This document shows positions 23,751 to 46,900 of a DNA stretch of 64,000 bases, piece after piece. Each line of letters opens with the position of its first letter. Position 1 is the stretch's first letter. The translations under genes were made by a program, and so were the position numbers. This DNA is from a virus, in the IMG/VR virus record IMGVR_UViG_3300027833_000028, positions 24,599 through 88,598 of that record; one strand, 5' to 3'. The notes beneath the pieces are model-generated. The model searched no databases and was not told the DNA's origin. It was given only the letters and a program-made list of their open reading frames with translations.

Positions 23751-23752
23751 TT

Positions 23753-26749: not shown

Positions 26750-26773
26750 ACCTAAAGGGTTTATACAAAACAC

Positions 26774-26796
26774 TTTGTAAACTTATATAATTATAT
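26774..26796 (+). promoter_or_regulatory. Promoter-like motif variant (TTTGTAAACTTATATAATTA)
   Basis: This is a diverged copy of the TTTGTATATTA motif, with its TTTG 31 nt before the ATG at 26809. It is preceded by a 6-bp hairpin at 26747-26763 (TAAACC/GGTTTA) that overlaps the stop codon and lacks a T-run. It probably provides fresh transcription for the large cargo genes. Confidence 0.35.
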
Positions 26797-26808
26797 TAAT
26801 TTTACATT

Positions 26809-29800
26809 ATGGCAACATACATAAAAGGAGCAGATACATATTTACCGGATATTAAGCCGTTCACACCGGATTATAAATTCTTGTCTGCAGTTTTGGAGAC
26901 AAGACAAGATAAGTATGATACTAATTTTAAGGCTACCAATGACTTATATAACAAGGTAGTCTATGCTGATTTGTCTAGGAATGATACTAAAGAAAGAAGA
27001 GATCAGTATGCAGAACAAATAGCACCACAGATAGAAAAAATATCTGGTATGGATTTATCATTAGCTCAAAATGTTAATGCAGCTAAGGATGTCTTTGCAC
27101 CATTTTATGAAGATGATATAACTGTAAAAGATGTTGTATATACATCTAGGTATAGAGAAGAAATGAAGACAGCAAATCTATTGCTTAATTCACCAGATAG
27201 AACTGTACAAGCAACATACTGGAAGACTGGTGAGAGAGCAATGCAATATCAAATGGATGCATTTATAAATGCAGATCCTGATAAAGCATTACAAATGGGT
27301 TTACCTAAATATGTACCAGATGCAAATTTGTTTGAAATGAGTCAACAGATGTTGGAAAACATGGATCCTCCTTTAAAGATGAAGAGAGATAGGTTTGCCA
27401 AAAAAGCTAATCCAAAGTTTAACCCTAATAAACCTGTATCAGAAACTAATCAAAGAGAGATTGCAAATTCTGATTGGATTATTACAGAACAAAATGGTGC
27501 TCAAGTAACTGGTGCTGCATTACAGCAGATCAGAAATAGACTTATGGAAGCTCCAAGAGTACAAGCTGCATATCAAACAGAAGCATATGTTAAAGGTATG
27601 GATTGGGCAACGCAAGCTGTGAACGAAGGTAGAGCTGCTAACTTAGAACAAGGACAAGAACTTTGGGCTTCTGAAACAATAAGAAGGCTTGATAAAATTA
27701 ATGAATTAAGAATGGCTCAAGACATGCAGGCTTTATCTAAAGCAGAAAAAGCAAATGTTTCATGGGCAAATTATAAAGGTGCTAATGGTATTATAGAAGG
27801 GTCACAACTTGATCAAGCTAATACAGAACAACTTTCAAGAACTGAACAATTTAAAGCAGCTTTAGAAGCTAAAAAAAGAATTAGAGAAGAAGCAGCATTA
27901 CCTAGTAAGACGCTGGGTAATACTTTGAATAAAGCATATAGTATGCTAATGCAGAATAATATCATGGCTGACATGAGAGAGTCTGCACAAGCATGGAGCG
28001 CAAGAGATTATGAGTATGAAATGCGTGAAAATAAATATGCTCTTCAAGACAAACAATTTAAAATGGACATGAGTAAGATTAGAGCTAATGCATCAAATGC
28101 TCTTAATCTAGAAAAAGTTAAACAAAAAAATAGAGTTGATCTTAAACTATTAGAAAATGAATTAGAAGGATCTAGATCAAATAGCCCACTTGGGGATGCT
28201 GTGTCAAGTGCTTATACTACCCTTGGGGATGGAAATACAATTGATTTAGCAACTGATAAAAAAAATAAGATTACCGAAAATCCTGATATGATTCAAAGAA
28301 CCAAGGATCAGTTTACTGAAGCAGATGGTAAATTAGCAGCAACTCAGGTTAATGATATTGTTAATATGATGTCATTAATGAATCCTAGAGGTGACAACTC
28401 AAGCCAAGATCAAACGTATGGTATTCAAGTAACTGGAGAGAATGGTGAGTTAAAAGAATTTAGAGGGTCAATAGAACAGATAAAAACAAAACTATTAGAG
28501 CAATCTACAAATGATGAAGGTGTCTCTACAGGTTATAAAAACAGAGATTTAATAGCTAAAATATATTCTGATAAGAATACAGAGTTTACTAACACAAGAC
28601 AACAAGCATTAGATAATCCAAATATGGTATTATCAAGAGACCAAAGAACTTCTTATGATCAGCTCTATGAAAAGATGAATGGTATAAATGGTACTAACAC
28701 TCAAGTAAAAGGTGTAGAGCAATTTGTACAAACAGCATATAATAAATTTGAGGAAGCTAATAATGTTACAACTGCTAGTGTAAAAAAAGAAGAGAAGCAT
28801 GTTAGAAACTTAATGGACAATGGTAATTTCCCAAATATTTTTAAAGACGGTATACCTTTAAATAAAGAAGAATACATTAACATGGTAAAGGAAGGTATTA
28901 AAGATGGTAAAATTACTAATGTTAATTTAGATTGGAAAGTAGATACTGGAACTAATAATAAAGATTATATGATTCAAGCTACAGAGACAGAATATACTGA
29001 AAACTATGCAACCACAGTATACTTAAGAAATCCAGACGGTTCTCCGAAAATGATTCTTGATGAGAAAGCAGTTAATGATGAAGCAGGAATGGTTTATGAC
29101 GCACTTAAAAAAGGATTAAACAAAAGACTTACTGGTCAACAAGATTCTAATGTTAATTCAGGAGATTTTAATTCTGCTAGATATGGAATCAACGGGAGCT
29201 TTACAGATGTAGTCAGTAATCCTACGTACAACTATTCTATTAATCCTTTAGTAAACAATCCTGACAATGAACAGGAAATGGCTAATATGATTAATCAAGT
29301 TAAATCTTTACAAGCTACCAACACACCTTATGGATTAGGAGTTGGAAGGTTAAATAAAGACTCAGAGTTGTTAAGCAAAAATGCTTTAGCATCAAAGGTT
29401 TATAATTTATGGTTAGAAGATTTAAATACTTGGATTAATAATCCTAAAAGATCTAACACAGATGCAATAGCACCTATTGGTGTTTTAGCATATATGCCAG
29501 TCTATGATAAAGCAAATGTAGGAGATAAAACTCATGCAGGTTATGAACTTAAGTTTAGTCAAGAGTGGCTTGCATCAAAAGTTAAAGGACCAAAAGATGC
29601 AGAGTATGGTGCATTAACTAAAGAAGATTTAAAAAAATTAAAAGGTGTAGGTGAAAATAATAATGACAGTGGTATATTTTTAGTTTTTGATCAGAGTCAA
29701 GATTTAAATGTTAAAGCAAAAAAGAATGATTATTATTCTTCAACAGAAATAGATATTCTTGGTGGTGATGATAGCAACTATCATGATTATTCAGTACCTA

Positions 29801-30081
29801 ATGATAATGGTATAACTAATACAGCTGACTATAGAGTTATTAAAAATGGGACTGGAAATTACATGCTTGATTATTCAGTTAATTATTATAATCCTTATGA
29901 TCCAAATGCTGAAAATTATAGTGAATATACAACTGACACAGGCACAGTTCAAATGGATTTTAGAAATGGCTTAATGGGAATTGATCAACAGATGATAAAT
30001 CTGCAAGCTCAGTATCAAGAAATTAGAAGAAATAACCAGGCCTTAAGAGAAAAAGATCAGGCTATTTACGGTAAAAAATAA
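26809..30081 (+). CDS. crAss-like cargo protein
   Basis: This 1090-aa protein begins ATYIKGADTYLPDIKPFTPD and continues with a helical block (VLETRQDKYDTNF, YADLSRNDTKERRDQYAEQI, SGMDLSLAQNV). From memory this start is characteristic of crAss-like cargo proteins encoded just before the virion RNA polymerase. The body is helical, Gln/Asn-rich and without membrane segments. Residues ~345-470 are likely coiled coil. No catalytic motif is seen. It probably packs inside the particle with the polymerase and is ejected with it. It is 11 nt upstream of the polymerase gene. Confidence 0.65.
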   Translation: MATYIKGADTYLPDIKPFTPDYKFLSAVLETRQDKYDTNFKATNDLYNKVVYADLSRNDTKERRDQYAEQIAPQIEKISGMDLSLAQNVNAAKDVFAPFYEDDITVKDVVYTSRYREEMKTANLLLNSPDRTVQATYWKTGERAMQYQMDAFINADPDKALQMGLPKYVPDANLFEMSQQMLENMDPPLKMKRDRFAKKANPKFNPNKPVSETNQREIANSDWIITEQNGAQVTGAALQQIRNRLMEAPRVQAAYQTEAYVKGMDWATQAVNEGRAANLEQGQELWASETIRRLDKINELRMAQDMQALSKAEKANVSWANYKGANGIIEGSQLDQANTEQLSRTEQFKAALEAKKRIREEAALPSKTLGNTLNKAYSMLMQNNIMADMRESAQAWSARDYEYEMRENKYALQDKQFKMDMSKIRANASNALNLEKVKQKNRVDLKLLENELEGSRSNSPLGDAVSSAYTTLGDGNTIDLATDKKNKITENPDMIQRTKDQFTEADGKLAATQVNDIVNMMSLMNPRGDNSSQDQTYGIQVTGENGELKEFRGSIEQIKTKLLEQSTNDEGVSTGYKNRDLIAKIYSDKNTEFTNTRQQALDNPNMVLSRDQRTSYDQLYEKMNGINGTNTQVKGVEQFVQTAYNKFEEANNVTTASVKKEEKHVRNLMDNGNFPNIFKDGIPLNKEEYINMVKEGIKDGKITNVNLDWKVDTGTNNKDYMIQATETEYTENYATTVYLRNPDGSPKMILDEKAVNDEAGMVYDALKKGLNKRLTGQQDSNVNSGDFNSARYGINGSFTDVVSNPTYNYSINPLVNNPDNEQEMANMINQVKSLQATNTPYGLGVGRLNKDSELLSKNALASKVYNLWLEDLNTWINNPKRSNTDAIAPIGVLAYMPVYDKANVGDKTHAGYELKFSQEWLASKVKGPKDAEYGALTKEDLKKLKGVGENNNDSGIFLVFDQSQDLNVKAKKNDYYSSTEIDILGGDDSNYHDYSVPNDNGITNTADYRVIKNGTGNYMLDYSVNYYNPYDPNAENYSEYTTDTGTVQMDFRNGLMGIDQQMINLQAQYQEIRRNNQALREKDQAIYGKK

Positions 30082-30092
30082 ATCATAAGTAA

Positions 30093-33000
30093 ATGGAAAA
30101 CGAATCAAAAACACCATTACAAGAACTCAACCAAGCATCTTTAAGACCTGCCCCAAGTGTAATACCTGACGGGCAGTTCCGCTTTGAGCCTATTGAAGAG
30201 TTGTTTGAAACCCCAGAGGAAAAGTTTAATGATTATGCTATGAGTGGTAATTTAGCTGCTGATGATATATCTGGAGTTAATTTAGTGAAGTCTGATATAG
30301 ATAAATATGGTATTGGAGCTATGGCTAGTTTGGGTATAGCTGATCCTGGTACTGCTACTGATACATATAATCCAATAAAACAAAATAGACCTGATAGTAA
30401 TGAGAATACCTTTTCAATGACGAAGAGGTTACTAACTTTAGATGACACACCTGTGTCAGAGAAAAAGGTTGCCCCTGCATTTTCAGGCATGAGGCAAACT
30501 CAATTTATGAGGTATTACGAACATCCTGAATTTAATAACTTAGGATATTCTCCATATGCAAATATGGAAAACTACTATAATGAAAACTCAACTATTTATG
30601 ATGACATGGCTAGGATGAGAGGAAACTGGTGGTCATTAGTTGGTACTGGTCTTGATTCTGTATATGGATCTATGTTTAGTGGAGGAGATTTTTTAGAACC
30701 TGATCTTGAATCTGCTACTGCATTTGAAGACAAGATGGGAATCATGAGTTCTACAAGAGGTGGTTTTGGAGGCTTTGTAAATAACCTAGCAGCTAACTCT
30801 GCTTACACGGGAGGTATACTTATTTCTATAGCAGCTGAAGAATTGATATTAGCTGGAGTAACTGCTTTGTCTGGAGGTACAGCAGCACCAGTTACTATTG
30901 CTAAGACAGGTGCAAATGTTGTTAAAGGTGCTAAAGCAATTTTTAGCTTTACTAAAATGTTTGAAAAAACAAGAAAGATATTATCAAAAGCTAAAGAGAT
31001 TGAAACTGCTAGAGATTTTTGGGTTGCCGCTAATGGTGGTAGAAAGATGGTTGCTGGTGCATTAAAAAAAGGATTTACCCCAAACACTTATAAAGCATTT
31101 AAAGAAATAAAGACTGCAAAAAATGCAGGTCAAAATATGTCTAATCTTGCCAAAATGAATTTAAAGTTTGGTGGATTTTATAGAGATATGAGAGCTGTTA
31201 ATTTAGCTGCGTCAGAGGCTAAGCTTGAAGCAGGTATGGCATACAACCAAGTCTTGAAGAATGGTATGAATAATTATTCTGCTGCTAATGGAGGCAAGAG
31301 TGTTGATGAATATGAAATGTCAAGAATTAGTAATGCGGCTAATAAAGCAGCATTTAAAACTATGATTGCTAATGCTCCTTTAATATATGCAAGCAACTGG
31401 CTTGTTCTTGGTAATGCATTAGGTGGATTTCAAAGAGGTGTTCAAAATACATTAGGTTCTGCTTTTGGAAAAGGCATTACTAAAAATGTAATTAATACAG
31501 CAGGTAAAAAAGTTGTTGATGCTGCGGGTAAAGTAATTAAAAATCCTTTTAAATATTTAGGAGGAAAAGAAGCAGGGTTCTTAGGACTCAAAAGATTAGG
31601 TGCAAAAATTAAAGCTGCTGGTGGTTGGAAAAGTGTGGCTGGTAGTGGTAGTATAGTTATGTTAGATTACTTTGCTGCAAATGTTGCAGAAGGTATACAA
31701 GAAGTTTCTCAAGAAGCAATTTCTGCAGCAACTGTTGGATACTATACAGAAATACTACAGAACCCAGCACAAGGTGGAGTTGCTTTGCAAAATCAAATGA
31801 TACTATCAGCAATGGGAGATCAGTTTTCTTCTGAAGGTGCTGGTGTATTTATGTCTGGTTTTTTAATGGGTGGTCTTGTACAACCTGTTCAATCAGTTTT
31901 TATGCAAGGTGTACCTTCTGTATTTAAGTATGGATTACAGGAAGCAGGTATAGGTCTAGCCACAAAGAAACAAAAGGAAACCTACGCTGAGTTTAGAAAA
32001 ACAAAGGACGAGATGATAGAGAGAATTGTTGACTCCTATAATAAATCTTGGAATAGTCAGGCTATAGATCCTTCTGAACTTTTTGATGTAAATAGATTAA
32101 ACTTCATGGTTCAGAAAGAGATGGCTGAAAAAATGAAAGATAGTACTTACAGACAAGATTTCTTTGGATTTAAAGATGCAGCAGATAATGCTAAGTTTCA
32201 GCAGTTCTATACTATGTTTGAAACTAATGGTACACAAAACTTTAGAAATCAACTACAAGGATTTTTAGAAATGTCTGATACTGAAATGATTGAGGCCTTT
32301 CCTGGAGTATCTAAGAAAGATCAAAAAGATGGTAAGTTAAGACAACGTATAAATGACACTATTATCCAGATGGATAAAATGGAAGAGAATTATAATAAAC
32401 TTAAAGATAAATTTATTAATCCATTTGATGAAACAAAATATAACCGCAAGACACAAGAGAAAGAATACATTAATGAGTTAGTAAATAGAGCAGGGTATGA
32501 TCATGCACGTTATTTATATATGTTTACTAATCAAGGATTCATGTCTGCTGTAGAAAGAGCAGATGGAATATACAGTAAACTTCAAGCAGAACCATTATTT
32601 CAAAAAATGGCTGCTAGTGATATTACTACTTTGCTTGACCCAGCATCAATAGAAAGAGAGATAATTATTCTTGAACAAGAAATTGAAGCCTTTGAAGGAA
32701 CCCCAGAAGGAGCAGCAACAGCAGCATCACCTAAAAAGGAAAAAATAAATAGACTTAAAGCTATTCAAAAGATTGTTAATGATCCTAAAAATAGATTTAA
32801 GAACGGAACATTTAAAAGAAACAAGGCACTTAAAGACAGTTTAAGGTCAGAGTTTAAAAACTATGTAAGATTCCTAGCAAAGAATGAAGGTTCTTTTATT
32901 AATGAAGATAATATTGATTCTGCATTAACTGATATTGTAGACTACTATGCTTTAAACAATAGAGCTAAGGTGTATGATAAGGCAATTGAGTTCATGAATA

Positions 33001-36000
33001 ACCCTGAGAAATTTGCTGAAATGGTAGCTAGATCTCAAGCTCTATCTAAAAATAGATTAGATGGCAGAATTAAAGAAACAAAAGCTGCATTAGAAAAATA
33101 CACAGATATTATTTTAGCAAATCAATTAGTAAATGATTTAACTAAAGATCCAATTGGAGCTTATGCTGATGAAGGGCAAATGGCATTGTTTTTACAAACA
33201 GGAGATTCACGCTTTTTAATAAACTTCTATGATGAAAATGGAGAGATAATTGAAGGTGTTCATGATGTTAAGTATAAAATGATACAAAGACTTATTGAGG
33301 TATATAACTCTACTAGGTCTGATCAAACAACTGAAAAGGATTTAACAGAAGATCAAAAAGAAGATGCTAAAGTTAATGATGTAGAAAATCAAAAGTCTGA
33401 TATTGAAATGATGCTTGAGAATGCAGGTATTGAATTATCTGTTGATACAATAACTATAAGCCCATATCTAGATGAGGTCTTAAGAAACGCATATAGAAAG
33501 TATAAAGCAAGAATGGCTGCCTCTGGTAAGCCCAGCTTATCTGCACAAGAATGGAAAAGTACTGCTGAGGCATTAGATTTAAAAAATGTTTTTAATGCTA
33601 TTAAACAAGTATGGGCAGCTGGTGCAATGACACAAAACCCTGCTGGAGAAACTTTATTTACAAGTCCTATAGAGCAATCACTTGTTGACTCTGATACAGG
33701 ATTTAAAGAATTTTTATCTACACCTAAACAGCAATTGTTAGCAGAGAACCCATTAATTACTTCAATATTAAATCAAACAACTATTACACTAGATGATATA
33801 TTTGAGCAACCAAACGTTGCTGATAATACAGAAGTAGCTGGAGGAGTAGATCCTGTTGGTGAAGGTGTAGTTGCTGATCTATATAAACGAGAAGTAAAAA
33901 CATCCGGAGAAGAAACAATTATAATCTATGAGTTACTTGATAAAAAAGGAAATAAATTATCTCCTGAAATATTAGATTTTGTAGATGAACAATTTGATTC
34001 ATTAAGAGGAACATTTAATGAGTCTCAGGCTACTGAAGCATATGAAGCTTTAAAAGCTATTGATTCACAAGCACCAGATTCAACACCGTTTGAGTTTGAT
34101 GGTGTTGACGGTTTGTTTTATGGAATGACTATTTACAAAGGAAGTGAAAAGTATATTATAATTCAAAAGCCTAACAAATCAAAAACATTTGGTAAGAATC
34201 AAAAGCTTAGAGTAATTAAAGCATCTAATAATGTAGGACCAATATCTGAAAGAAAATTTGAGTACATAAAACAAGGTGAGTTTTCAAATGTATTTACTCA
34301 AGAAGAAATAACAATGGATGTATTGGATGACACTGTTAGTAAATTAGATGTCAACTCATTACTTAGTCCTTATGCACATGCAAATAGAGCAGATACAAAA
34401 GGTATGTCTGAAGATGCAATAGCATCAATGATGACATCACAAAATGCTGAAGGTAAGGAAAGATTAAAAATTATATTAAAGGAATTAACTACTGAGGAAA
34501 GAGAACAGTTAGAATTTGTTGTATATGCAAATCCTAGCCCAACAACTGTAAATGATTATGTTATACGTAATATGTCAGGTGTTGAATATAAATCAGCTAA
34601 TCCTCTTATAAAAAGATATTCTAGTGAATATGTTATTGGTATTAGAATAAACAATACAGTAACTCAAGAAAGAATAAATGCAAAATTAATTGAACAGAAG
34701 GTTGATCCAAGTGATTCACCAGATGGAATTTTTGCATATATGAATAATGCTTCATTCTTAATTAAAGATCAATTGACAGGAGCTGATGTAGATCCTAGAA
34801 CAATGAACTTAAGACAAGCTCAAAATGTAATGTATAGTGCGTTTGGAAAAACCATTACTACAGAAGAGCAGTTAAAAGAAATACAAAAAGCATTTATTCT
34901 AAATTCTATAATTACTACAACATTTAACAATCTTGGTGTAGATGGAGAGAAGCAATTCTTTGGTATTAATGATCTACCTTTTAATATTGATTTAAATCAG
35001 AAAGGTGGTAGAACAGTATATAGCAATGGTAATCCTGTGTTTATAGAAGCTCTTGACTATCAATATGCTGATGAAAATAATAACTACTTTGTGTTTGATT
35101 TAAAGTATGACAAAGGAGTTGGTGGAAGAATATATAACTATAGTTCAACTGCAGAGGATAGTGTTGCTTTAGAAAAACAAATTCTCCTTCAATTAGAAAA
35201 GCAAGGTATTAATAAAGATACTATGCTAGCTGGTAAAGACAGATATTTAGCTGCAGTAAAGTTACCCAATGGGCAGTATAGATTGGTTAATCTTAAAGCT
35301 GTATCATATACAAAAATAGAACGTGATGCACTTTTTGTTGAAATAATTGACAAGTCCAAAGAGATTCAAAAGATTAAAGATGCTGCCAAAAGACAAGCTG
35401 CAGCATTTAAATATAATGAGGAACTGCAAGAAAAACTTTTCCTAAGTAGTGCACGAGGGAATCAAATTGAATTAAACATTGGTGAAGACGGTAGCATATA
35501 CTTATCACTTGACAGAACTGTTGGAGAAGAAAATGAAAAGATTGCTAATGAAGGAATTGATACCGATGTAGTTAATTCAGATACAGATGCTGTTAAGATT
35601 ATAGAAGGTTTATTTACTAAGTATAATAGTAATGAGGCAGTAAATGATTATGATGCAAAAATAAGAGATAAGAATATAAGAAAGTCTTTTCCAACTGGAG
35701 CTCCTACTCAAGATATTATTGATAAGAGTACAACTGAGGTTGCTATACAGGTTGCAACGGACAATTCATTAGTGCTTTCTGCTGAGGCAGATGCAATAAA
35801 TGCACAGAGAGCTGTTGCATTTGCTAGCATTAAACCTAAAAATGAAGACAGAAGAGTTGAAGATGAGGCAGCTTTACCTGAGATAGCAGAAGAAGCTGAG
35901 GATAGTACTGCAGACATGTCAGATGATGAGATACAAAAAAGGGTTGATAATGACTTTAATAGTAATCCATTAGGCATTGAGCATATAATCAATAAGGAAC

Positions 36001-39000
36001 TTAGAGGTGAAGAACTTAATGATGCAGAAAAGAAAATGATGAATAACCCTGTTATTGCTAACGGGGTAAACATACGTGTTAGTTTAGCAGGTGGTAGAGG
36101 AAGTCTAGTACCTGAAGGAAAAACAAAAGAAACCTCATTAGATAAAGAAAAAGCAAAACTAAAAGCACTTAGAGATAAATTAATAGAAGGTAAAAAAGGT
36201 GTAGATAAAATTGATGCTTTAGATAAAAGTCCTGAGTATCAAAAACAATTAGCATTAGTAAAGAAGCTTTCTAAAACAGCAAACAAATTAGTTGAAGCAA
36301 CTACAGAAACAGAAAGAATAGAAGACTATAATGAATTTCTTGACTGGGCTAATGAATCATTACCATCTATAATTGGTATTGAAGATATTTTAACATTGGC
36401 TGATAACGGTATTAGCAAAGGCTACAAAAGAGTTGGTGCATTTGTATTAGATATCCATCAAGTAGCTGGGGGTGTCAGTGTAAACGGAACTGTTTATGTT
36501 GGGGCAAACAATCCATTTAAATATCATGAGGCTTTTCATGGTGTGTTTAGAATGTTACTTACACAAGAACAAATAGATAGATACAGAAAGTTTGCTAAGA
36601 TAGAACTAAAAGCAAAATATGGCTCTCAATATAAAACAGAGCTAGAAAAATTTAGAACTTCTGCTAAGCAATATGAAGACATGTCTGATCTTGAATTAGA
36701 AAATGAATTTGCAGAAGAATACATGGCAGATGAATTTGAAGCATTTAAAAAAGATCCTAGAAGTTCAAAAACCAATACAGAAATAAAATCATTTTTTACT
36801 AAGATAATAGAATGGATTAAAGGTGTGCTAGGTAAATACACATCTAATGAACTTCTAACATTATATGAAAATATTGATGCTGGTAAGTTTAAGAGTGCAA
36901 CATTACAACAAAATGAATTTACTTCTTTAGCAGGAATAACTGTTGCTAATGCTTTAGTAAGACATGATGTAGTATCTAAAGATGAAGATGTATCAGGTTT
37001 CTTATATTTAGATTCTGATGTAGTAGATCCTTTAATTAGATCTATGGCAGGTATGTTTATAACTAAGGTTAATAAAATAGAAGAAGCAACTTATAATCCT
37101 AATGATGTTTATAATGACTTGTCTAGAGACTTTAGAGTCTTATTAGATCCAGATGACCCAAGCAATAAAATCTTAGGGCCTGGTAAAGTTAAACAACTTC
37201 AAGAATTAGAAGATGCATTTACTAATTACCCAGAAGATATTAAGAAAGAAGTTTTTGGTTTAATTAATATTATATCAGATCAAGATTCACAAAATGAATT
37301 AAATTCAGAAATTGAAGAGGACGGAACAGGAGTAAGAAAAGCAGATGAATTTGATAAAGATGCATCTGAGATAGGTGGATTTAATTCATTGGCTCAGAAG
37401 GTGAGAGCATATATTGCTACAACAACAATGGTAGGTGTTGACTTTTTTGGTAAGACTGAATTAAAAGATGGTGTGCCTTTGATTGTACCTGTCAAATTTA
37501 ATGAAGCATATAACGGATTATTAAAAGCTGTTTCAAACATAAGTGATCCTATAGTAATGCTAAGAAGGATGTATACATATTCAAGGTTAAATCCTAATAT
37601 GTCTTCTGTAGTTGATAAGCTATTTAATGATGCAAACTTAGACCTTGATACCTTGGCTTCTGATACACCATTTATAAATGTATCTAATCCAAACCTATTA
37701 CAATCAATGCTTAAAGGTTTTGAAAACTATAAGGTAGATTATTTATTCAATGAAAGAGATGGTGCAGGAAACATACTAATATACACCGCATCTGAAAGAG
37801 ATGATATAAATGCTCAACTAGACGAATGGTCTCAAGCATATATATTTAAAAGAAAACAAATGAACCTTGATGCTTCAGGTAGCAGGATAGAGGATTTACT
37901 TGGTCTGGTTAAGAACATGGAGAATATACTTGGATCAAAAACCAAGAACAAATCAAACGAAGCAACTCAAAAACTTGCAGTAGAGCATTCAGAAAAATTA
38001 TTTGAATTAACTGGGATAAGATTAAGTCCAATGTTTCTTAACTACAGTTACGTTAAAACATTTGACTACAGTAAACTAGATGCTGAGCAAAAGATATTAT
38101 ATAACTCATATTCTATAGAGCCAATATCAGAACAGTTCTTAGTTACTTTGTATGATCTTATGTATAAGGATTCTAATATATTTTCTAAGAAGTCTGATGG
38201 TATGGCTTCTAGACTTACCTATATCAGTTTAAGTAACGCTGCGCTTGATGAGTCTATTGGAGCATCTTCTTTTATTAATCCTAATGGAGATTTGGTTTAT
38301 GGACATCAACTACCAACTTATCATTTAAAAGCGGTAGCACAATTAAACAACTCAAATATATTAGATAAATTTTCTGCTGATAAATATTTAGATAGAAATT
38401 ATTTATTAAATAATGTAGCATTTCTAAATTTATCTGATCAAGGTAGAATTAAAGTAACTAGAATAGCAGGTAGTAAAATAAAATCTGTTGTTTCTACTGA
38501 TCTAAACAATGATGCTCAAGAAGATATATTAAATACATCTTTGAATGATAGTAGATCTACACAAAGCTTTGGTGAGTTTACTCCTCAAGAGTTTGCTGTA
38601 TCTTTAATTAATAATTACGTTGCTAACTTTAACAGAAGAAGTGGTAAGAATGATATGGTAGATGGTGTTGGACAAATACCTACAGCAACAGCACCTGTAT
38701 TCTTACGAGTTATGGAAGCTGCTAATACAGGAGACTTAGTTAGTCTGCCTATAATTAAAGCGGTAACAATGAAAGGTGATAATGTTGAATTAACACCTCA
38801 ACTTGTAAATGCATTTATAAATAGAATAGCATCAGAGTTTGAAAGAATAAACAGAGAAGCTATAGCCTTTGAAGAATTTGGAGATAATATTGCAGGTTAT
38901 AATGATTCTATGCAAGGCAGAGCATTTAGTTTTGTAAACACAGGTTTGTTATTAGATCCTCTTACTCAGCAAACATTAGCTAATGTAGCTATCACAGCAG

Positions 39001-42000
39001 GTAAGGCTAAACAAGAAATGACATTTGAACAAGGAGTTAAGTTAGCATTGGGTATATCTACTTCAGGTATAAGAGCCGAAGTGGAAAATGGATTAAATGA
39101 AGCATTTGCAGGATTTGATGCAATGCTTAATAAACTTCAAGTAAAGAATAATTTATCTACTCAAGTTAGACAAGGATTAACAATAGGTGAAGGGGTGGCT
39201 AGAACTATGGTTGATATAGCCGGTTCTCAGTTAAACTTAAATACTAATGAATCACATAACTTACAACAGATATTTTTTAATAACTGGATTAACGCAGCAT
39301 CAATTAATGATCTTTTATTAGGAGATCAAGCAGTCTCTTTACAAAGTATGATTGATAAAGTTAAAAGAGCTAAGCTAAATAATTCTGCATATTACAGTGC
39401 ATCTAGTTTACTTGTTGCACCTGAACTTGGAATTACTCATGCTAGTACAAACTTTGACATGTATGCTTTTGATGAGATTCAAGAGGTATCTTCTTTAACA
39501 GGAAATAATATTGATAGTGCAGATGCGCAAGCATACATAACAACTAAAGGTTCAAGGTATGCAACCTTTGCTTTTGGTAGACTGAGTCCATCTATGGCTG
39601 GCATGTATGATACATTAGATAGAGGAGAAGCTCCAACGAGTGATGATGTTTTTGGTACTAGTGAAAACCCAATTGGTTTTGCTAAAAAACAAGATTTAAT
39701 AAACTCTAAGAAATATGTTTATATGGATGGTAAGACTGCCATCAAAATGTCTGTTACTGTTTTAACTAAAGAGTACACGTCTAATTATAATGCTGCATTG
39801 GGCAAGTGGGAAGCTAAACCTACAATGAAACAACTTCATTATTTGCGTGAGCAGATGGAGGCCAATGAAGATGCAAATAATAATTTTGCTATGGCGGCTC
39901 CATTATCTGCTGTAAAGATGATGAAGAGTAACATAAACAAATTGAATGATGACTTTAGTGGTTTTGACACAAGTCAAAATTTAACATCTACTAATTTAAG
40001 AACTGAGTATTTAGGTTTACAAGTTGTTCAACCATCTAATAAGATGGAGATAACTGACATGACTCAGATTAAAGATATAATTACATCTGAACAAGATGAC
40101 CTTGTTGAAATTCCTGGAATGGGTTTAAATGAAAAGGGTCAGGTAATGAGAGTTGGAGATGTCAGAAGATTATATAATGAAGCTATATCAAAAAGGGTTA
40201 CATTAAAATATAAAAACAAAAGAAATTTAATATTTACTTTTGACACTGCATTAGATGAATTTAAATTATCTAAAAAGAAAGGTGCTATAACTCCAAATCT
40301 TGCAGCATTTTTAAATTATGCACAGGGTTCTCTAAAAGCATCTGGCTCAGCATCAAACTTGTTAGAGTTTTTTGCAACTGAAGGTGGAGAGCAAAAGTAT
40401 AATCTTAACAATCCTTTTACAGCTAAAAAATATGAGCAATTGTTTCTTTCATATTTTAGTAAAGGAACACTAAGAGAGAAAATCCCTGGTACTTCTTTAG
40501 CTTTAGTATCATCATTTGGTACTAGATACTATAGAATGGTATATGAAGTTAAGAACGGTATACCTGTAAGATCAGAAATAATAAGACAGACACAATGGAA
40601 AGGTGGAGATGCAGTTGAAACTATGCCTGGTGATGGAGTATATCCAAATGGACAAGTTGTTATAGATGTATTGAGAACAGGTCTTATGGATTACACAGAT
40701 CCTACTGATCCATCTACATCAACAGGTGAAAGGTATAGTGAGGTTGTTATGCCAGCTATGGATAAAAACGTAATGGATTTAATAGCCAACACTGATGCTA
40801 AAATACCTGATGCTATATCTAAAATGTTTGGTGTACGTATACCAACACAAGATAAACACTCAGCGGTAAATATGAAAGTTGTTGATTTCATGCCTGCATA
40901 CTATGGTTCATCTGCTATATTCCCTAAAGAATTAGTTGAGGTATCAGGAGCAGATTTTGATATAGATAAAGTGTATGCTAAAATTAAAGAGTACTATTTA
41001 GATAGCAAAAATAACTTTGTTGCTTATGGTAAAGGAGATCCATATACTGAATATGTATTGAATATAAATAAACTAACTGCCAAAGAAGGTACTACGTATA
41101 ATTCTGCAGCTAAATTATTTAATAATGATGAGATAGCAATTAGATTGGAGAATTCATTAACACCTTCAGAAATGAACAGACTGACTGATCCAGATGGTGC
41201 TAACCGATTTACTGAAGATTCTTTAAGAGCAGCATTAGTTCTGGGTCTTCCATCAACTAAAGCTAAGTTTGATAAGTATGTTAAGAAACATGGTACACCA
41301 AATGAAGCTATATTAAACAATGATATTTTAGATTACAATTATGCTCTTGCAGGTAACACAGGAATGACTGGAACTGAATTGAGCATGCAAGAAAACAAAA
41401 GTGATTTGCCTATTGCATACCAAGCAGCAGACATAGAAGTATTAAAAACTGCGTTTGATGAGCTTGTTAATAATGAGAATATACAACTGTTTAAAGACAG
41501 ACAAGATTCACCTATAGATATAGATACATTGACGGGTATGATACAATCATTTGAGGCAAACAAGGGCTCTGCAATTGGAGCAGTTGTTTTACCAAATGCA
41601 TATTTGAATTTACTTACTGAATACAAAATTGAATTATTTAAAGAAGTTAGAATAGGAAATAATAAATATCCTGGGTTTGGAGGTAAGTTAATAAACGGTG
41701 AGAGAAAGCAAGATATAATATCTTCTTTAGTTACAATGGAAACAGATAATGCTAAAGAAAGATTTATTGCCAAGTTGGGATTAAACAGACATGCTGTAGG
41801 TATGGCTGCTAATATGACATCATTAGGAATACCTTTAAAAACAACTCTTCTTTTATTGAACTCTGCAGAAGTAAGAGATCTATATAATCTTTCTATGAAC
41901 AAAAAGGATAAGATGGATCCGGGGTTAGATGATTTATTAGAAAGAAGAATTGGTTCATTAGATGCTAATATAAAAGCTGAGGCAGATAGAACAGGCAAGA

Positions 42001-43892
42001 AAACTAAATTTGTTAGTGTAACTGATGAATTATTAGAAAGTGCTGTAGATAGTACAGCTGCACTGTCTGATAACCAAAGAATTCAAATCTTATATTTATT
42101 TAATAGAATTAATAAAATAAAAAAATGGTCAGCAAAAATGAGACCTGCAGTTACTTTATCTCAAGGGTTACCTAAAGATGTTCCTACAATTAAGAAAAAT
42201 ATAAAAGATCTTCAAGATTTATTTGGGCCTTTTGCTCAAGCAGATGTGAATGCTATTTTTAAAAGTAAAACTTGGCAGAGTAATAACCTTAAAATATTTT
42301 CTCAAATTTATCAAGAGCTATTACCAAACACTCTTTTAACAATGTCTCCAGAATTTGGTAAGATGTTAGATCCTGTATTAGAAAATTTAGATACTGATAG
42401 TGATGGATTTACATTTGAGTCTCAAGCACAAGTAGAACAAGATTTGCTTTCCTATCTTACAATTAAAAGTTACCAGCATTTATTAAACAATAGTTCAAGT
42501 AATGCTGCACCCGTAACAAATAATTTAATTTATCCAGGACCAATTAATACAACAGATTTATCTATTGTAAAAATGATTAGAGATGAAAAATTAAGAAGGT
42601 CAGAAAACAATGAAGAATCAAATTTCTTTTTAGATTCATTTGTTGGTACAGAATATGCAAATGACCAAGGGAATAATACAGGTTTAAACATAGCTACTTC
42701 AAATACATGGAGAAGATTGAATGCAGCAAATATGATTGACCTGCAAACATCTTTTGCTAAACTATACGGAGGGCTTGAAACAAGAGATTTAGCAGTATCC
42801 ATTCTACATTACATGATGATAAAAGATGGATTACAATTAAAGTATGGTAGTTTAATGAAAGCAATGAGTCCTTTTGTTATTGAAAAGTATCTTAACAATG
42901 TAAATACAGTTGAGCTAGCATTAAAACAAGTTGTTCCTTATGAAAAAGCATTTGGTTTAAGTTATGAAGATTTGGCAAATGAATTTAAAGAAGGTTATTT
43001 ACAATCTAATCCAGTAGGTCCATTGCTTAATAACTATGAAGTAGGTGACCTTAGAAATGGAACAGGTATATTAAACATAATTGAAGATTTTGATGCAGTC
43101 AAAAATGAATTTGTAATTATGGATGGTGCTTATGGAGAAGCTAAAACACCAAAAGATTATGTTAGGTTAGCTATACCAGGGAAAGTAGTTAGCTATAGAT
43201 TATTTAAACTAGACAATTTAAATGAGAAAACAGCAACATATAAAGAAGTTGCATCAATGGGATCTAATCAACAGTTTGCAGCTGGTTTTGTTGGTGGACC
43301 AAGATTAACTTACAAACAAACAAGGAGTACTAAAACTAATAATGATGTTGCAGGTGTTGCACCATCTGCACCAGCACAACAAACTAGTGAGTCAGCTGGT
43401 GCAAGTGTTGGTACTGATGCTAAAGCTACACAAGAAAAACAAGATGTGTTAAGAACTCCAGGAGCAATTGTTGAAGTCACAAACAAAAGTGTTGTTGTAA
43501 AAGAAGATCCTGATGCACCTGCAGTTAATATAGCTGACCCAGCAAAAGCACTAGAAGCCTTGTCTAAGTTAACTGCAAGTGGTACCTTTGACGAAGCAGC
43601 TAATGCCAATATTGAAAACAATTCTCAGCAGTTAGATGCTCCAACTGATGAACAACAAAGTGAAGCTGATATTTTAAAAGAAGATCTTAAACAATCAGAA
43701 GAAGTTGCTGAAGCTGAAAAATTAGAAGATTGGTGGGAAGCTAATGTATCAGGTAATACAGAAGCAGAAAATAAAATGAAAGAGCAAGGTATGGCATCAT
43801 TGGAAGATGCACTACTTATATATGGTGATTTATTTTCACAAACCACGTTGGGAGAACAAGAATTAATAGAAAGACTTAAATGTTTTTTATAA
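30093..43892 (+). CDS. Giant virion RNA polymerase polyprotein with zincin domain
   Basis: This 4599-aa protein is the largest gene here. The polymerase call rests on the motif D3621-F-D3623-I-D3625, preceded by SGA and by a block with RIPTQDKHS and VVDFMP. It matches the DxDxD metal-binding site of the single-chain, two-barrel RNA polymerase of crAss-like phages such as Cellulophaga phi14:2 gp66. K3275 (SAVKMM) and K3317 (PSNKME) are candidates for the conserved lysines of the other barrel. Upstream, H2145-E-A-F-H2149 with a following ENEFAEE (E2205-E2209) forms a complete zincin protease motif. Residues ~240-275 are hydrophobic and could meet membrane. The C-terminal ~200 residues are low-complexity and acidic. 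In the studied relative the enzyme is injected and transcribes early genes. This protein is about twice as long as that enzyme, so it looks like a fusion or polyprotein that the zincin may process (inference). Confidence 0.82.
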   Translation: MENESKTPLQELNQASLRPAPSVIPDGQFRFEPIEELFETPEEKFNDYAMSGNLAADDISGVNLVKSDIDKYGIGAMASLGIADPGTATDTYNPIKQNRPDSNENTFSMTKRLLTLDDTPVSEKKVAPAFSGMRQTQFMRYYEHPEFNNLGYSPYANMENYYNENSTIYDDMARMRGNWWSLVGTGLDSVYGSMFSGGDFLEPDLESATAFEDKMGIMSSTRGGFGGFVNNLAANSAYTGGILISIAAEELILAGVTALSGGTAAPVTIAKTGANVVKGAKAIFSFTKMFEKTRKILSKAKEIETARDFWVAANGGRKMVAGALKKGFTPNTYKAFKEIKTAKNAGQNMSNLAKMNLKFGGFYRDMRAVNLAASEAKLEAGMAYNQVLKNGMNNYSAANGGKSVDEYEMSRISNAANKAAFKTMIANAPLIYASNWLVLGNALGGFQRGVQNTLGSAFGKGITKNVINTAGKKVVDAAGKVIKNPFKYLGGKEAGFLGLKRLGAKIKAAGGWKSVAGSGSIVMLDYFAANVAEGIQEVSQEAISAATVGYYTEILQNPAQGGVALQNQMILSAMGDQFSSEGAGVFMSGFLMGGLVQPVQSVFMQGVPSVFKYGLQEAGIGLATKKQKETYAEFRKTKDEMIERIVDSYNKSWNSQAIDPSELFDVNRLNFMVQKEMAEKMKDSTYRQDFFGFKDAADNAKFQQFYTMFETNGTQNFRNQLQGFLEMSDTEMIEAFPGVSKKDQKDGKLRQRINDTIIQMDKMEENYNKLKDKFINPFDETKYNRKTQEKEYINELVNRAGYDHARYLYMFTNQGFMSAVERADGIYSKLQAEPLFQKMAASDITTLLDPASIEREIIILEQEIEAFEGTPEGAATAASPKKEKINRLKAIQKIVNDPKNRFKNGTFKRNKALKDSLRSEFKNYVRFLAKNEGSFINEDNIDSALTDIVDYYALNNRAKVYDKAIEFMNNPEKFAEMVARSQALSKNRLDGRIKETKAALEKYTDIILANQLVNDLTKDPIGAYADEGQMALFLQTGDSRFLINFYDENGEIIEGVHDVKYKMIQRLIEVYNSTRSDQTTEKDLTEDQKEDAKVNDVENQKSDIEMMLENAGIELSVDTITISPYLDEVLRNAYRKYKARMAASGKPSLSAQEWKSTAEALDLKNVFNAIKQVWAAGAMTQNPAGETLFTSPIEQSLVDSDTGFKEFLSTPKQQLLAENPLITSILNQTTITLDDIFEQPNVADNTEVAGGVDPVGEGVVADLYKREVKTSGEETIIIYELLDKKGNKLSPEILDFVDEQFDSLRGTFNESQATEAYEALKAIDSQAPDSTPFEFDGVDGLFYGMTIYKGSEKYIIIQKPNKSKTFGKNQKLRVIKASNNVGPISERKFEYIKQGEFSNVFTQEEITMDVLDDTVSKLDVNSLLSPYAHANRADTKGMSEDAIASMMTSQNAEGKERLKIILKELTTEEREQLEFVVYANPSPTTVNDYVIRNMSGVEYKSANPLIKRYSSEYVIGIRINNTVTQERINAKLIEQKVDPSDSPDGIFAYMNNASFLIKDQLTGADVDPRTMNLRQAQNVMYSAFGKTITTEEQLKEIQKAFILNSIITTTFNNLGVDGEKQFFGINDLPFNIDLNQKGGRTVYSNGNPVFIEALDYQYADENNNYFVFDLKYDKGVGGRIYNYSSTAEDSVALEKQILLQLEKQGINKDTMLAGKDRYLAAVKLPNGQYRLVNLKAVSYTKIERDALFVEIIDKSKEIQKIKDAAKRQAAAFKYNEELQEKLFLSSARGNQIELNIGEDGSIYLSLDRTVGEENEKIANEGIDTDVVNSDTDAVKIIEGLFTKYNSNEAVNDYDAKIRDKNIRKSFPTGAPTQDIIDKSTTEVAIQVATDNSLVLSAEADAINAQRAVAFASIKPKNEDRRVEDEAALPEIAEEAEDSTADMSDDEIQKRVDNDFNSNPLGIEHIINKELRGEELNDAEKKMMNNPVIANGVNIRVSLAGGRGSLVPEGKTKETSLDKEKAKLKALRDKLIEGKKGVDKIDALDKSPEYQKQLALVKKLSKTANKLVEATTETERIEDYNEFLDWANESLPSIIGIEDILTLADNGISKGYKRVGAFVLDIHQVAGGVSVNGTVYVGANNPFKYHEAFHGVFRMLLTQEQIDRYRKFAKIELKAKYGSQYKTELEKFRTSAKQYEDMSDLELENEFAEEYMADEFEAFKKDPRSSKTNTEIKSFFTKIIEWIKGVLGKYTSNELLTLYENIDAGKFKSATLQQNEFTSLAGITVANALVRHDVVSKDEDVSGFLYLDSDVVDPLIRSMAGMFITKVNKIEEATYNPNDVYNDLSRDFRVLLDPDDPSNKILGPGKVKQLQELEDAFTNYPEDIKKEVFGLINIISDQDSQNELNSEIEEDGTGVRKADEFDKDASEIGGFNSLAQKVRAYIATTTMVGVDFFGKTELKDGVPLIVPVKFNEAYNGLLKAVSNISDPIVMLRRMYTYSRLNPNMSSVVDKLFNDANLDLDTLASDTPFINVSNPNLLQSMLKGFENYKVDYLFNERDGAGNILIYTASERDDINAQLDEWSQAYIFKRKQMNLDASGSRIEDLLGLVKNMENILGSKTKNKSNEATQKLAVEHSEKLFELTGIRLSPMFLNYSYVKTFDYSKLDAEQKILYNSYSIEPISEQFLVTLYDLMYKDSNIFSKKSDGMASRLTYISLSNAALDESIGASSFINPNGDLVYGHQLPTYHLKAVAQLNNSNILDKFSADKYLDRNYLLNNVAFLNLSDQGRIKVTRIAGSKIKSVVSTDLNNDAQEDILNTSLNDSRSTQSFGEFTPQEFAVSLINNYVANFNRRSGKNDMVDGVGQIPTATAPVFLRVMEAANTGDLVSLPIIKAVTMKGDNVELTPQLVNAFINRIASEFERINREAIAFEEFGDNIAGYNDSMQGRAFSFVNTGLLLDPLTQQTLANVAITAGKAKQEMTFEQGVKLALGISTSGIRAEVENGLNEAFAGFDAMLNKLQVKNNLSTQVRQGLTIGEGVARTMVDIAGSQLNLNTNESHNLQQIFFNNWINAASINDLLLGDQAVSLQSMIDKVKRAKLNNSAYYSASSLLVAPELGITHASTNFDMYAFDEIQEVSSLTGNNIDSADAQAYITTKGSRYATFAFGRLSPSMAGMYDTLDRGEAPTSDDVFGTSENPIGFAKKQDLINSKKYVYMDGKTAIKMSVTVLTKEYTSNYNAALGKWEAKPTMKQLHYLREQMEANEDANNNFAMAAPLSAVKMMKSNINKLNDDFSGFDTSQNLTSTNLRTEYLGLQVVQPSNKMEITDMTQIKDIITSEQDDLVEIPGMGLNEKGQVMRVGDVRRLYNEAISKRVTLKYKNKRNLIFTFDTALDEFKLSKKKGAITPNLAAFLNYAQGSLKASGSASNLLEFFATEGGEQKYNLNNPFTAKKYEQLFLSYFSKGTLREKIPGTSLALVSSFGTRYYRMVYEVKNGIPVRSEIIRQTQWKGGDAVETMPGDGVYPNGQVVIDVLRTGLMDYTDPTDPSTSTGERYSEVVMPAMDKNVMDLIANTDAKIPDAISKMFGVRIPTQDKHSAVNMKVVDFMPAYYGSSAIFPKELVEVSGADFDIDKVYAKIKEYYLDSKNNFVAYGKGDPYTEYVLNINKLTAKEGTTYNSAAKLFNNDEIAIRLENSLTPSEMNRLTDPDGANRFTEDSLRAALVLGLPSTKAKFDKYVKKHGTPNEAILNNDILDYNYALAGNTGMTGTELSMQENKSDLPIAYQAADIEVLKTAFDELVNNENIQLFKDRQDSPIDIDTLTGMIQSFEANKGSAIGAVVLPNAYLNLLTEYKIELFKEVRIGNNKYPGFGGKLINGERKQDIISSLVTMETDNAKERFIAKLGLNRHAVGMAANMTSLGIPLKTTLLLLNSAEVRDLYNLSMNKKDKMDPGLDDLLERRIGSLDANIKAEADRTGKKTKFVSVTDELLESAVDSTAALSDNQRIQILYLFNRINKIKKWSAKMRPAVTLSQGLPKDVPTIKKNIKDLQDLFGPFAQADVNAIFKSKTWQSNNLKIFSQIYQELLPNTLLTMSPEFGKMLDPVLENLDTDSDGFTFESQAQVEQDLLSYLTIKSYQHLLNNSSSNAAPVTNNLIYPGPINTTDLSIVKMIRDEKLRRSENNEESNFFLDSFVGTEYANDQGNNTGLNIATSNTWRRLNAANMIDLQTSFAKLYGGLETRDLAVSILHYMMIKDGLQLKYGSLMKAMSPFVIEKYLNNVNTVELALKQVVPYEKAFGLSYEDLANEFKEGYLQSNPVGPLLNNYEVGDLRNGTGILNIIEDFDAVKNEFVIMDGAYGEAKTPKDYVRLAIPGKVVSYRLFKLDNLNEKTATYKEVASMGSNQQFAAGFVGGPRLTYKQTRSTKTNNDVAGVAPSAPAQQTSESAGASVGTDAKATQEKQDVLRTPGAIVEVTNKSVVVKEDPDAPAVNIADPAKALEALSKLTASGTFDEAANANIENNSQQLDAPTDEQQSEADILKEDLKQSEEVAEAEKLEDWWEANVSGNTEAENKMKEQGMASLEDALLIYGDLFSQTTLGEQELIERLKCFL

Positions 43893-43906: not shown

Positions 43907-46900
43907 ATGGCTAAATGTTATAATAGAAATGATGCTGCATATCTAGCATTAAAAGATATTTATAAAACTGATCTAAAAACTTCTCAGGTAATTAGTAATT
44001 GGCAAGAAGCAAATGATTCTGACATTTTTCCAAGTGCTGTACAGGCTAAGTCAATGGTTTCTGATCAAGAGATTGTTTTTAGTTTAAAGCAAAAAGAATT
44101 TGGTCAAGCAGTTTTAGATAATGTAAGACGTGAAAAAATAGGTAGCAGGCTAGCTGGTCAATTTTTAATTAATAACTCTAATCCTGAGACATTATTATAT
44201 GATGAATCCTTTCTTGAAAATAATCTGAAAAGGTTCTATAGATATTTAGAAATAAATAATATAGATGAATCATCATTTAAAGTAACAAGAACAAATCAAA
44301 GCTATAAGATTGAACCAATCAATAGTGCATTTGGTAGAAGAGACATTTTAGAAAAGTCAAGATCATGGGATACTAATAGATCAAGAGCTGTAGTAATGCA
44401 TCTTAAAAGAATGTTTCCACAGGTAAATGTAAAAATGTTATCTGTAGCAGAAGCTAGAATATTACATGAATCCCTACCAAAGTATAATAAAAAAGATGTT
44501 GGTTTTGACAACGTAAAATCTTTCTATTACAATGGCACAGCATATCTGATTAAAGGTAGAGTAACTGATGAAATAGCAATTGAAGAAATGTTGCATCCTT
44601 TTATAGATGCAATAAAAATGGAAAATGAAGAACTGTTTAATAATTTATTAGATGAAGCAGTAACTAACTTTCCTGAATTATCTGAGGAAATTAAAGATGC
44701 ATACAATAATCAATCTAGAAACTTCAGTGAAACTGAAAGGGACTTAGAAATTGTAACGCAAGCTTTAGCCAGACACTTCAAAAAAGAATATGAGACAACT
44801 CCTACCAAAGGATTTTTAGATAAGATTGCTGAATTATTAGAATGGTTTAAAAGTGTTATAGAAAATTTAAGTGAATACTTAACAGGTAAACAATTACCAG
44901 TATCAGCAATTAAAGCTACTACATCTATGAGTGATATAGCTAAGTTATTGAATACAGAAGGTATACAGTTTAAATTAGAGAAGAGAGTCAACGGTAATGT
45001 AAGGTATAACTTAACTAAGCAAAAGGCTAAAGAATTAAAGGCTGCAAGAGCTGAAGCCAATAATGTACAAAAGCCAATATTAGATCAACTATATAATCTT
45101 GCTCAACTTGCAGATCAAGAAATACATCAATTTTCTGTATCTGAAAAGAATGCTGCAGCTGGTGATACACTTGTGGTTTTGAATGAGGAAGATCATGTAT
45201 ACTATAATCCTAATAAAACTAAAGATATATACACCTCAGCTACAACAGCTATTAAAGGAACATTACCTGAAGATAAACAAATAGCACATAAGATTAATTT
45301 GGATATTGGTAATGAAATAGATACTCTTTTAGAAGGTGTTATTGGTGGTTTATCATTTGATGCATCATTTAAAAATTTAACAACTGACAATGTATCCAAA
45401 GAAAAAGCAAAAGAAGTTTTTGATACGTTGGATACTATAATACAAAACTTTAAAGATCAAGGGTCTATTGTTTTATCACAAGTAGTATTGTTTGATGAAG
45501 CAACAAAGATAGCCGGTATGGCTGATATATTTATTATAGATGAATATGGGAGAGTGCAAATTCTAGATTTAAAAACAAGTAAGAACAATCTAGATGATGT
45601 AAATGATGATGGCATTAGAAAATATAAAGTTAAATATCCTTTAGCAGCTGATAGTAAACTTATACAATATGGTGTCACAGAACTAAATACAGAAGCTCAA
45701 CATAATTTACAAGTTGCTTTGTATAGAAGAATGATTGAGAACATGGGCTATGAGGTATCTTATCATGAATGGTCTATGGCAACTATTCACTTTAATGTTG
45801 GAATAGAAGGTTACGGAGTTGATCAGGTTTTTAACGGTGAAGTAAACTATGACAGAATATATGCACACCCTATCTCAACTCAATTAGATAAGGTAAACAA
45901 GTTAATACCCATATCTAAAAACTCTGCTAAACAAGAATCATTGTCCAAAAAGCAACGTGATGCTTATAATAAAATTTGGAATGGTAAAGATCAAACAACT
46001 GAAACCACAGAGCAAGATAAAACTGATGCAGAAAATTTTACTGAATATAATATTGCTGCTGGTTTACTAGAAGACTACATGGGTAAGCTTATTGCTAAAA
46101 GAGATTTAATCCCTTTAGTAAAGAATAGTATTTATATCCAGTCTACTCAGAAAAAAGAGATTGATCAAATTTCAAAAACTATAGCATACATTGCAATAGC
46201 CTTATCTGAAGATGCGGGTCAACAGTCTGTTGTTTTATCTGAGGTATTACAAGATGCTCTAGCACAAATAAAAGAGTTTAGATCTTTTATGGAAGATCCT
46301 AACAATATAACAAAGCCAGAATATTTATCATATGCACTACACTTTGAAAAATATCTAGAAACATTTAAAGGTCTTTATGAATTGACAGATCTGGTTGGGT
46401 TAAACAACACACAGAAAAATTTAATTTTATCTTTACAAACACAACTAAATGCATTAAGAGGATCCAAGGGAAGTAGAGGTATAGTTGATGATGCGTTATA
46501 TGATTACGTACAAGAGCAAGTAAGAACAAAGTCTAGTAATAACTACGGAGGAGAAGGAAGTTACTTTACCAAAGAAGATTTAGACTTAGTAATGGAGTTT
46601 GCACAAGATATAGATGGTGTTGAATACCAAACTAGAGATATGGATACTTCAGGTGATGTAATGTTATCTGTTATGGCTAAAATAAGAAAGATACAAACTC
46701 AGAAACTTTTAGATAAGGTTGCTCAAAGAGAAGACATAATTAGAAGTCTTGCTCAAAAACTTGTCAAGCTTAATCCAGGGGTACCTTTAAATGAGCTCTA
46801 TGACTTTATGTTAGAGTTTGTTGATGTTGACGGAGTTAAAACCTTTAGTGGTAATTATGTAACAGCAATAGGTAATAAATATAATATAAAGCAAGATCAA

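Follow-up and report, generated by a model that had tools for sequence, protein, structure and literature searches.

Crassviruses are among the commonest human gut viruses, and the RNA polymerase of one of them, phage phi14:2, is known from the literature to be carried in the virion and to transcribe early genes. This polymerase (gp66; structure 6VR4) belongs to a block of large cargo modules, here denoted A (zincin cargo protein), B (catalytic virion RNA polymerase) and C (RNAP-associated protein), which are distributed among genes in several ways. In Steigviridae such as crAss001 and phi14:2, the three modules are all separate. In Intestiviridae, B is fused with C and A stands apart, and in a few contigs A, B and C make up one protein of 5200-5600 aa. 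Separate A and B genes occur in related gut and marine phages, among them crAss001 (gp47 and gp50), p-crAssphage, crAss002, R. jaberico and two of the loci compiled here (L074 and L079). The crAss001 gene for gp47, which carries a zincin at its C-end (HEAFH 185 residues before the C-terminus), and the gene for the polymerase gp50 lie on opposite strands; gp47, gp49 and gp50 have all been detected in virions by mass spectrometry (PMC10172136). In p-crAssphage, KP06_gp45 is already annotated as ‘RNAP associated protein fused to zincin protease’, and the adjacent KP06_gp44 as ‘RNAP catalytic subunit fused to unknown RNAP subunit’.

We analyzed a window of 64 000 nucleotides (the whole stretch of DNA under study), which comes from an 88.6-kb virus record. 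Its capsid protein matches Crass_capsid (PF23898, E=1e-30) and its ring protein matches CrAss_Ring_2 (PF25702, E=1e-18). Judging by these signature proteins, the genome is that of a crassvirus (Crassvirales). The window also encodes a 1375-aa tail-region protein with a peptidoglycan-binding domain (PF01471; 16545-20672). A preliminary description had singled out an ORF for a 4599-aa protein, and the reading frame is indeed continuous, its translation being free of stops (Table 1). The same single-ORF state is found in dozens of independent contigs, which excludes an assembly error as its origin. Searches of Pfam and PHROGs with the 4599-aa protein gave zero matches. Comparisons were made with 38 relatives drawn from independent contigs, mutually <92% identical and 16-79% identical to the window protein. 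Scans of viral contigs with the p-crAssphage and R. jaberico polymerases as queries yielded zero loci.

Table 1. Positions of the cargo proteins, their modules and candidate functional sites in the window
Feature	Coordinates	Strand	Basis or remark
Fused cargo protein A+B, 4599 aa (zincin cargo protein + catalytic virion RNA polymerase)	30093..43892	+	
Module A (residues 1-2275), corresponding to crAss001 gp47 / p-crAssphage KP06_gp45	30093..36917	+	hhalign
Zincin domain, residues 2083-2269	36339..36899	+	homology to crAss001 gp47, invariant motif, partial AF2 model
HEAFH, residues 2145-2149, candidate zinc site	36525..36539	+	both H and the E identical in all 38 relatives
E2208-E2209, candidate third zinc ligand	36714..36719	+	100% invariant; helix modelled after the HExxH helix
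Possible linker where A and B are fused, residues 2245-2286	36825..36950	+	low pLDDT, adjacent split-gene boundary
Module B, residues 2280-4599, crAss-type virion RNA polymerase	36930..43889	+	profile match, hhalign
Modelled polymerase core, residues 2960-4150	38970..42542	+	AF2, Foldseek
DFDID, residues 3621-3625, catalytic metal site	40953..40967	+	invariant in alignments A2 and A3
Cys4597, the one cysteine in the 4599-aa protein; putative coupler	43881..43883	+	conserved 37/37
Module C, 1923-aa RNAP-associated protein	43907..49678	+	assigned by position only (as crAss001 gp49, phi14:2 gp65)
Cys4, the one cysteine in module C; putative partner of Cys4597	43916..43918	+	
Three cysteine-free proteins (1005, 998 and 1090 aa), probable further ejected cargo	20733..30081	+	

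Fusion of a zincin protein and a two-barrel RNA polymerase

For the profile of residues 2275-4599, the phi14:2 virion polymerase 6VR4 is the sole confident match of solved structure (hmmsearch, E=3.9e-25), and the match runs in two collinear blocks. Module B also aligns with crAss001 gp50 (E=3.5e-25) and with phi14:2 gp66 (E=5e-22) in hhalign. The AF2 model of residues 2960-4150 (pLDDT 81, pTM 0.80) has 6VR4 as its best Foldseek match (E=4.2e-27, TMq 0.60), followed by the RNAi polymerase QDE-1. Profile and predicted fold together identify module B as a crAss-type two-barrel RNA polymerase. The preliminary description had staked its proposal on such a fold near residues 3200-3700, where the model contains it, and on a crAss-like metal site, DFDID, which is found at 3621-3625 and is invariant in alignments A2 and A3. 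A second DxDxD, at 4100, fits a chance occurrence (1.4 expected). We also considered an N4-like vRNAP, i.e. a T7-like single-subunit polymerase, which is ruled out by the two-barrel nature of the window polymerase. In three other loci (L107, L108 and L193), the polymerase ORF is interrupted mid-way and the break lacks cysteines, as expected of an intron or an inserted gene with a rejoined product.

The part preceding the polymerase corresponds to module A along its length. Residues 407-775 align with the N-terminal part of a gp47-type A protein (cr85_1, E 5e-7) and residues 2083-2269 with the C-end of crAss001 gp47 (2103-2293, E 5e-9 to 1e-10; both by hhalign). Over most of residues 2245-2286, the AF2 pLDDT is <50, and this stretch is possibly a flexible linker. 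The gene boundary of split relatives falls beside it: in L074 and L079, A ends ~135 residues past HExxH and B begins within a few bases. The hhalign placements and this boundary indicate that the ORF is a natural fusion of the whole of A with the whole of B. Gene fusion also accounts for a protein twice as long as gp66, which at 2180 aa is about half the length, as had been noted. In the zincin-polymerase fusion, the parts are known and their arrangement is new.

Other arrangements were seen as well. Two loci, L207 (5520 aa) and L208 (5472 aa), and the partial sequences L204-L206, L210 and L213-L215 represent A-B-C fusions with zero cysteine and a degenerate YWEAFRR motif. The 5220-aa ORF of L231, likewise with zero cysteines, is a second lineage in which all three modules are fused. 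In L122 and L128, the N-terminal part of the B ORF is a module-C-like sequence, placing C before B, and a further C-type gene follows.

The zincin domain and self-processing

HEAFH at 2145-2149 is the sole HExxH of the 4599-aa protein (0.006 expected from composition). H2145, E2146, H2149 and the pair E2208-E2209 never vary across the 38 relatives, in agreement with the complete zincin motif with downstream glutamates that had been described; the distance to DFDID, given as ~1475 residues, is 1476. The sheet part of the AF2 zincin model has pLDDT <50, and a Foldseek search with this poorly modelled sheet gave zero matches, while the zincin profile matches Pro-Pro endopeptidase weakly (E=0.5). 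With its intact and conserved active site the zincin looks like an active enzyme. In most phages it adjoins a polymerase joint, either at the C-end of A or, in the phi14:2 group, at the N-end of C. In that group (gp65 at L085:7998-12263; L157-L190), motifs of the HEFGH and HEVVH types lie near the N-end of module C and are absent from A. Judging by this placement, the domain has switched sides of the polymerase.

The preliminary description had interpreted the protein as probably a self-processing polyprotein. The joining of a two-barrel polymerase to a conserved zincin stands; the role assigned to the protease, that of cutting out mature pieces, is not supported. If the protein did process itself, the zincin would cut the chain near 2245-2300 at assembly or ejection, releasing gp47-like and gp66-like pieces. 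The invariant active site agrees with such processing, as do the low-confidence, possibly flexible residues directly after the zincin, the fact that in most phages the domain borders a joint of B, and phage P1 DdrB, a processed protein that bears such a domain (PMC5512222). However, the presence of the protease is not tied to the fused state, since crAss001, p-crAssphage, crAss002 and others keep it at the C-end of a separate A protein. Moreover, the clade L204-L215, in which A, B and C form one chain, has YWEAFRR where others read YHEAFHG, so the zinc-binding histidines are lost and the zincin is probably catalytically dead in this fully fused clade. In the other fully fused lineage (L231), HESAH is retained and lies in module C near the B/C border. 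The N4 vRNAP, a 383-kDa single chain (PMC12633501) that also has a zincin, is packaged unprocessed (PMC5512222). The retention of the zincin in unfused proteins, its loss of function in L204-L215 and the uncut N4 vRNAP leave self-processing unsupported, and cleavage would undo the linkage implied by the cysteine pattern described below. Our search of the crassvirus literature on metalloproteases and zincins found nothing on processing. We consider self-processing unlikely, although cleavage at some stage may occur, for example after ejection, as the zincin usually adjoins a polymerase joint and residues 2245-2286 could be a flexible linker.

Another role can be envisaged in which the chain stays intact and the zincin acts after ejection as an effector on the host envelope or host proteins. 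Conservation irrespective of fusion and a precedent in polyvalent proteins (PMC5512222) speak for it, whereas no substrate is known and the domain appears dead in one clade. We hold this idea tentatively, at slightly less than even odds; it is compatible with the coupling of modules proposed below.

Cysteines at the facing ends of cargo proteins

Five neighbouring proteins of the window, 9615 residues in all, contain only two cysteines, C4597 of the fused protein and C4 of the next one, which face each other across the gene boundary. Three of the five (20733-30081) have 0 cysteines in 3093 residues, in contrast to the virion protein at 10027-16545 (2172 aa), which has 30. Ejected cargo in general may be recognizable by its lack of cysteine.

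We asked how general this pattern is within Crassvirales, using ORF calls by first ATG. In non-redundant loci, a cysteine lies ≤10 aa from the end at 312/322 termini that form joints between separate proteins and at 5/163 outer ends, a raw comparison that gives no probability as the relatives are not independent. At the joints, the C-end of A has it in 44/45 cases with A on the same strand and in 12/12 with A on the opposite strand, the N-end of B in 57/61, the C-end of B in 102/104, and the N-end in 97 of the 100 separate C proteins; in distant loci, the A and C roles were assigned by order and length, with homology checked in part. Outer ends with cysteine amount to 0/36 for the N-end of A, 2/95 for the C-end of C, 0/14 for the C-end of B-C fusions and 3/18 for the N-end of A-B fusions. 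Separate A proteins terminate in cysteine (..NTIC, ..LRCNS, ..SFSCM, ..KIVC), separate B proteins start with MxC and have a cysteine at the C-end, and separate C proteins start with MxC. Internal cysteines make up 0.01% of A, 0.06% of B and 0.04% of C, compared with 1.07% of the other ORFs in these loci.

Most often, A, B and C together contain two cysteines for each open joint: loci without a joint have 0 cysteines in 4/4 cases (full fusions of ~5500 aa), those with one joint have 2 in 36/52 and those with two joints have 4 in 25/33. Exactly one cysteine is present in 36 of 39 A-B fusions, whose lengths range over 3684-4755 residues, and it is aligned at the C-end; none of the 39 relatives counted has a cysteine at the A-B fusion junction.

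Shared ancestry was taken into account with a tree of the polymerase core, on which the A/B state changes at least nine times and the B/C state at least four times. Among informative independent contrasts, 4-6 of 6 for A/B agree with the cysteine rule and none is opposed, and 4/4 agree for B/C. The A/B result weakens (4.7 in the same and 0.2 in the opposite direction, of 7) when three ambiguous cases are assigned to the fused state. Newly made joints behave alike. Where A is split upstream of the zincin (L198 and L199), where an extra module is present (L197) and where C is split (L059), cysteines stand on both sides of the new joint. An extra 754-aa protein between B and C (L232:13816-16077) has just two cysteines, at 3 and 752, which is what an inserted part of the chain should have.

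Exceptions are a fusion-sized protein that still has an N-terminal cysteine (L112), an A protein without a C-terminal one (L194), and the human-gut Intestiviridae with a few others, which have extra internal cysteines (11 in the p-crAssphage locus, 18 in cr8_1). Several apparent exceptions disappeared on re-examination. In L088 and L134, the MSC/MASC start is internal, with the first ATG upstream; in L122 and L128, the N-terminal part matches module C rather than A; and in L118 and L232, the extra part sits between B and C. A nucleotide artefact of operon junctions is rejected, since the C-end cysteine of A is invariably present when A lies on the opposite strand; TGT and TGC are both used. 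An origin from split inteins or native ligation was also rejected: no intein halves were seen, and the N-end cysteine of B is at 3-7, not at 1.

A proposed coupler and comparison with known systems

Judging by where the terminal cysteines occur, selection may favour linkage of the parts, which reverses the question raised by the preliminary description: seemingly, the pieces are to be kept together. We propose that A, B and C travel as one train whose joints are made either by fusion or by a terminal pair of cysteines, with the zincin being unnecessary for making the pieces; we assign this a probability of about 0.6. As to the chemistry, we lean, by a little, toward virtually cysteine-free modules whose terminal disulfides link them head to tail, open in the cytoplasm and are interchangeable with gene fusion. 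The analysis shows the fusion, the polymerase fold, the conservation of the active site and the cysteine rule; from these we infer a covalent bond, its timing, its redox release and an ordered ejection. The three modules would be packaged in the head as one train and ejected in a fixed order through the narrow tail. Between separate neighbours, the lone C-end cysteine of the first would couple with the lone near-N-end cysteine of the second, most likely by a disulfide that forms in the periplasm or the virion and is reduced on reaching the host cytoplasm; between fused neighbours, which lack both cysteines, a peptide bond would take the place of the coupler. The window has one joint of each kind: A is fused to B, and the pair C4597/C4 would connect AB with C. 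A difficulty is the reducing state of the bacterial cytoplasm, together with the anaerobic life of many hosts; the disulfides could then form only at a late stage, in the periplasm or the virion. Opening of the disulfide in the reducing cytoplasm would free the polymerase. Having no other cysteines would keep the cargo from forming wrong joints as it is threaded, partly unfolded, through the tail; partial unfolding on passage is inferred in the crAss001 structure paper (PMC10172136). For the zincin, candidate targets would be a host envelope protein, another host protein or a late release cut.

Homotypic pairing or metal binding would also be compatible with the sequences. Alternatively, the terminal cysteines might serve as handles by which another partner (portal or capsid) packages or anchors the cargo, or as zinc clips. 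This would suit proteins that are all cargo, but it sits poorly with fully fused chains devoid of any cysteine and with the restriction of cysteines to facing ends, newly made joints included; we regard it as quite unlikely. A packaging tag was disfavoured likewise, as full fusions are cysteine-free. Homotypic disulfides, giving A-A, B-B and C-C dimers, would be permitted by the several copies of each protein that virions can contain (for example, 6 of each; PMC10172136). They would, however, leave unexplained both the facing-end restriction and the repeated gain or loss of fusion at exactly these ends (at least nine and at least four times), and we consider them very improbable.

The coupling by terminal cysteine pairs appears to be new for phage cargo modules, as no precedent for a cysteine coupler was found in the open-access papers searched. 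If true, it provides a rule, readable from sequence, that predicts which cargo proteins share one chain. It would also define the cargo set (cysteine-free proteins) and explain the varying ‘fused subunit’ annotations. It bears on how proteins of 1000-5000 residues pass a channel <50 Å wide in the right order.

Known systems share individual features with the window. The N4 vRNAP (gp50) and polyvalent proteins are also giant ejected chains combining an RNA polymerase with a HExxH domain (PMC5512222, PMC12633501), but the N4 polymerase is T7-like, of unrelated fold, and lies N-terminal of the HExxH domain. In P23-45 gp96, as in the window protein, a two-barrel virion polymerase is joined to a second giant virion protein (PMC10770324); the partner there is a tape measure protein, and gp96 is not known to have a zincin or to follow a cysteine rule. 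Among crassviruses, p-crAssphage KP06_gp44 and other Intestiviridae proteins also unite two modules of the same block, yet there B is fused with C and A is separate, whereas in the window A is fused with B and C is separate. Module A resembles crAss001 gp47 and p-crAssphage KP06_gp45 in carrying its zincin C-terminally (in those proteins, 185-215 residues before the end), but they are separate proteins ending in cysteine (..LRCNS and ..SFSCM). Module B has the same DFDID as phi14:2 gp66 (6VR4), a collinear two-block profile match to it and the same predicted two-barrel fold. However, gp66 is a separate 2180-aa protein with cysteines near both ends (MAC..., ...QECK), whereas in the window the polymerase is fused behind the zincin protein and has a cysteine only at the C-end.
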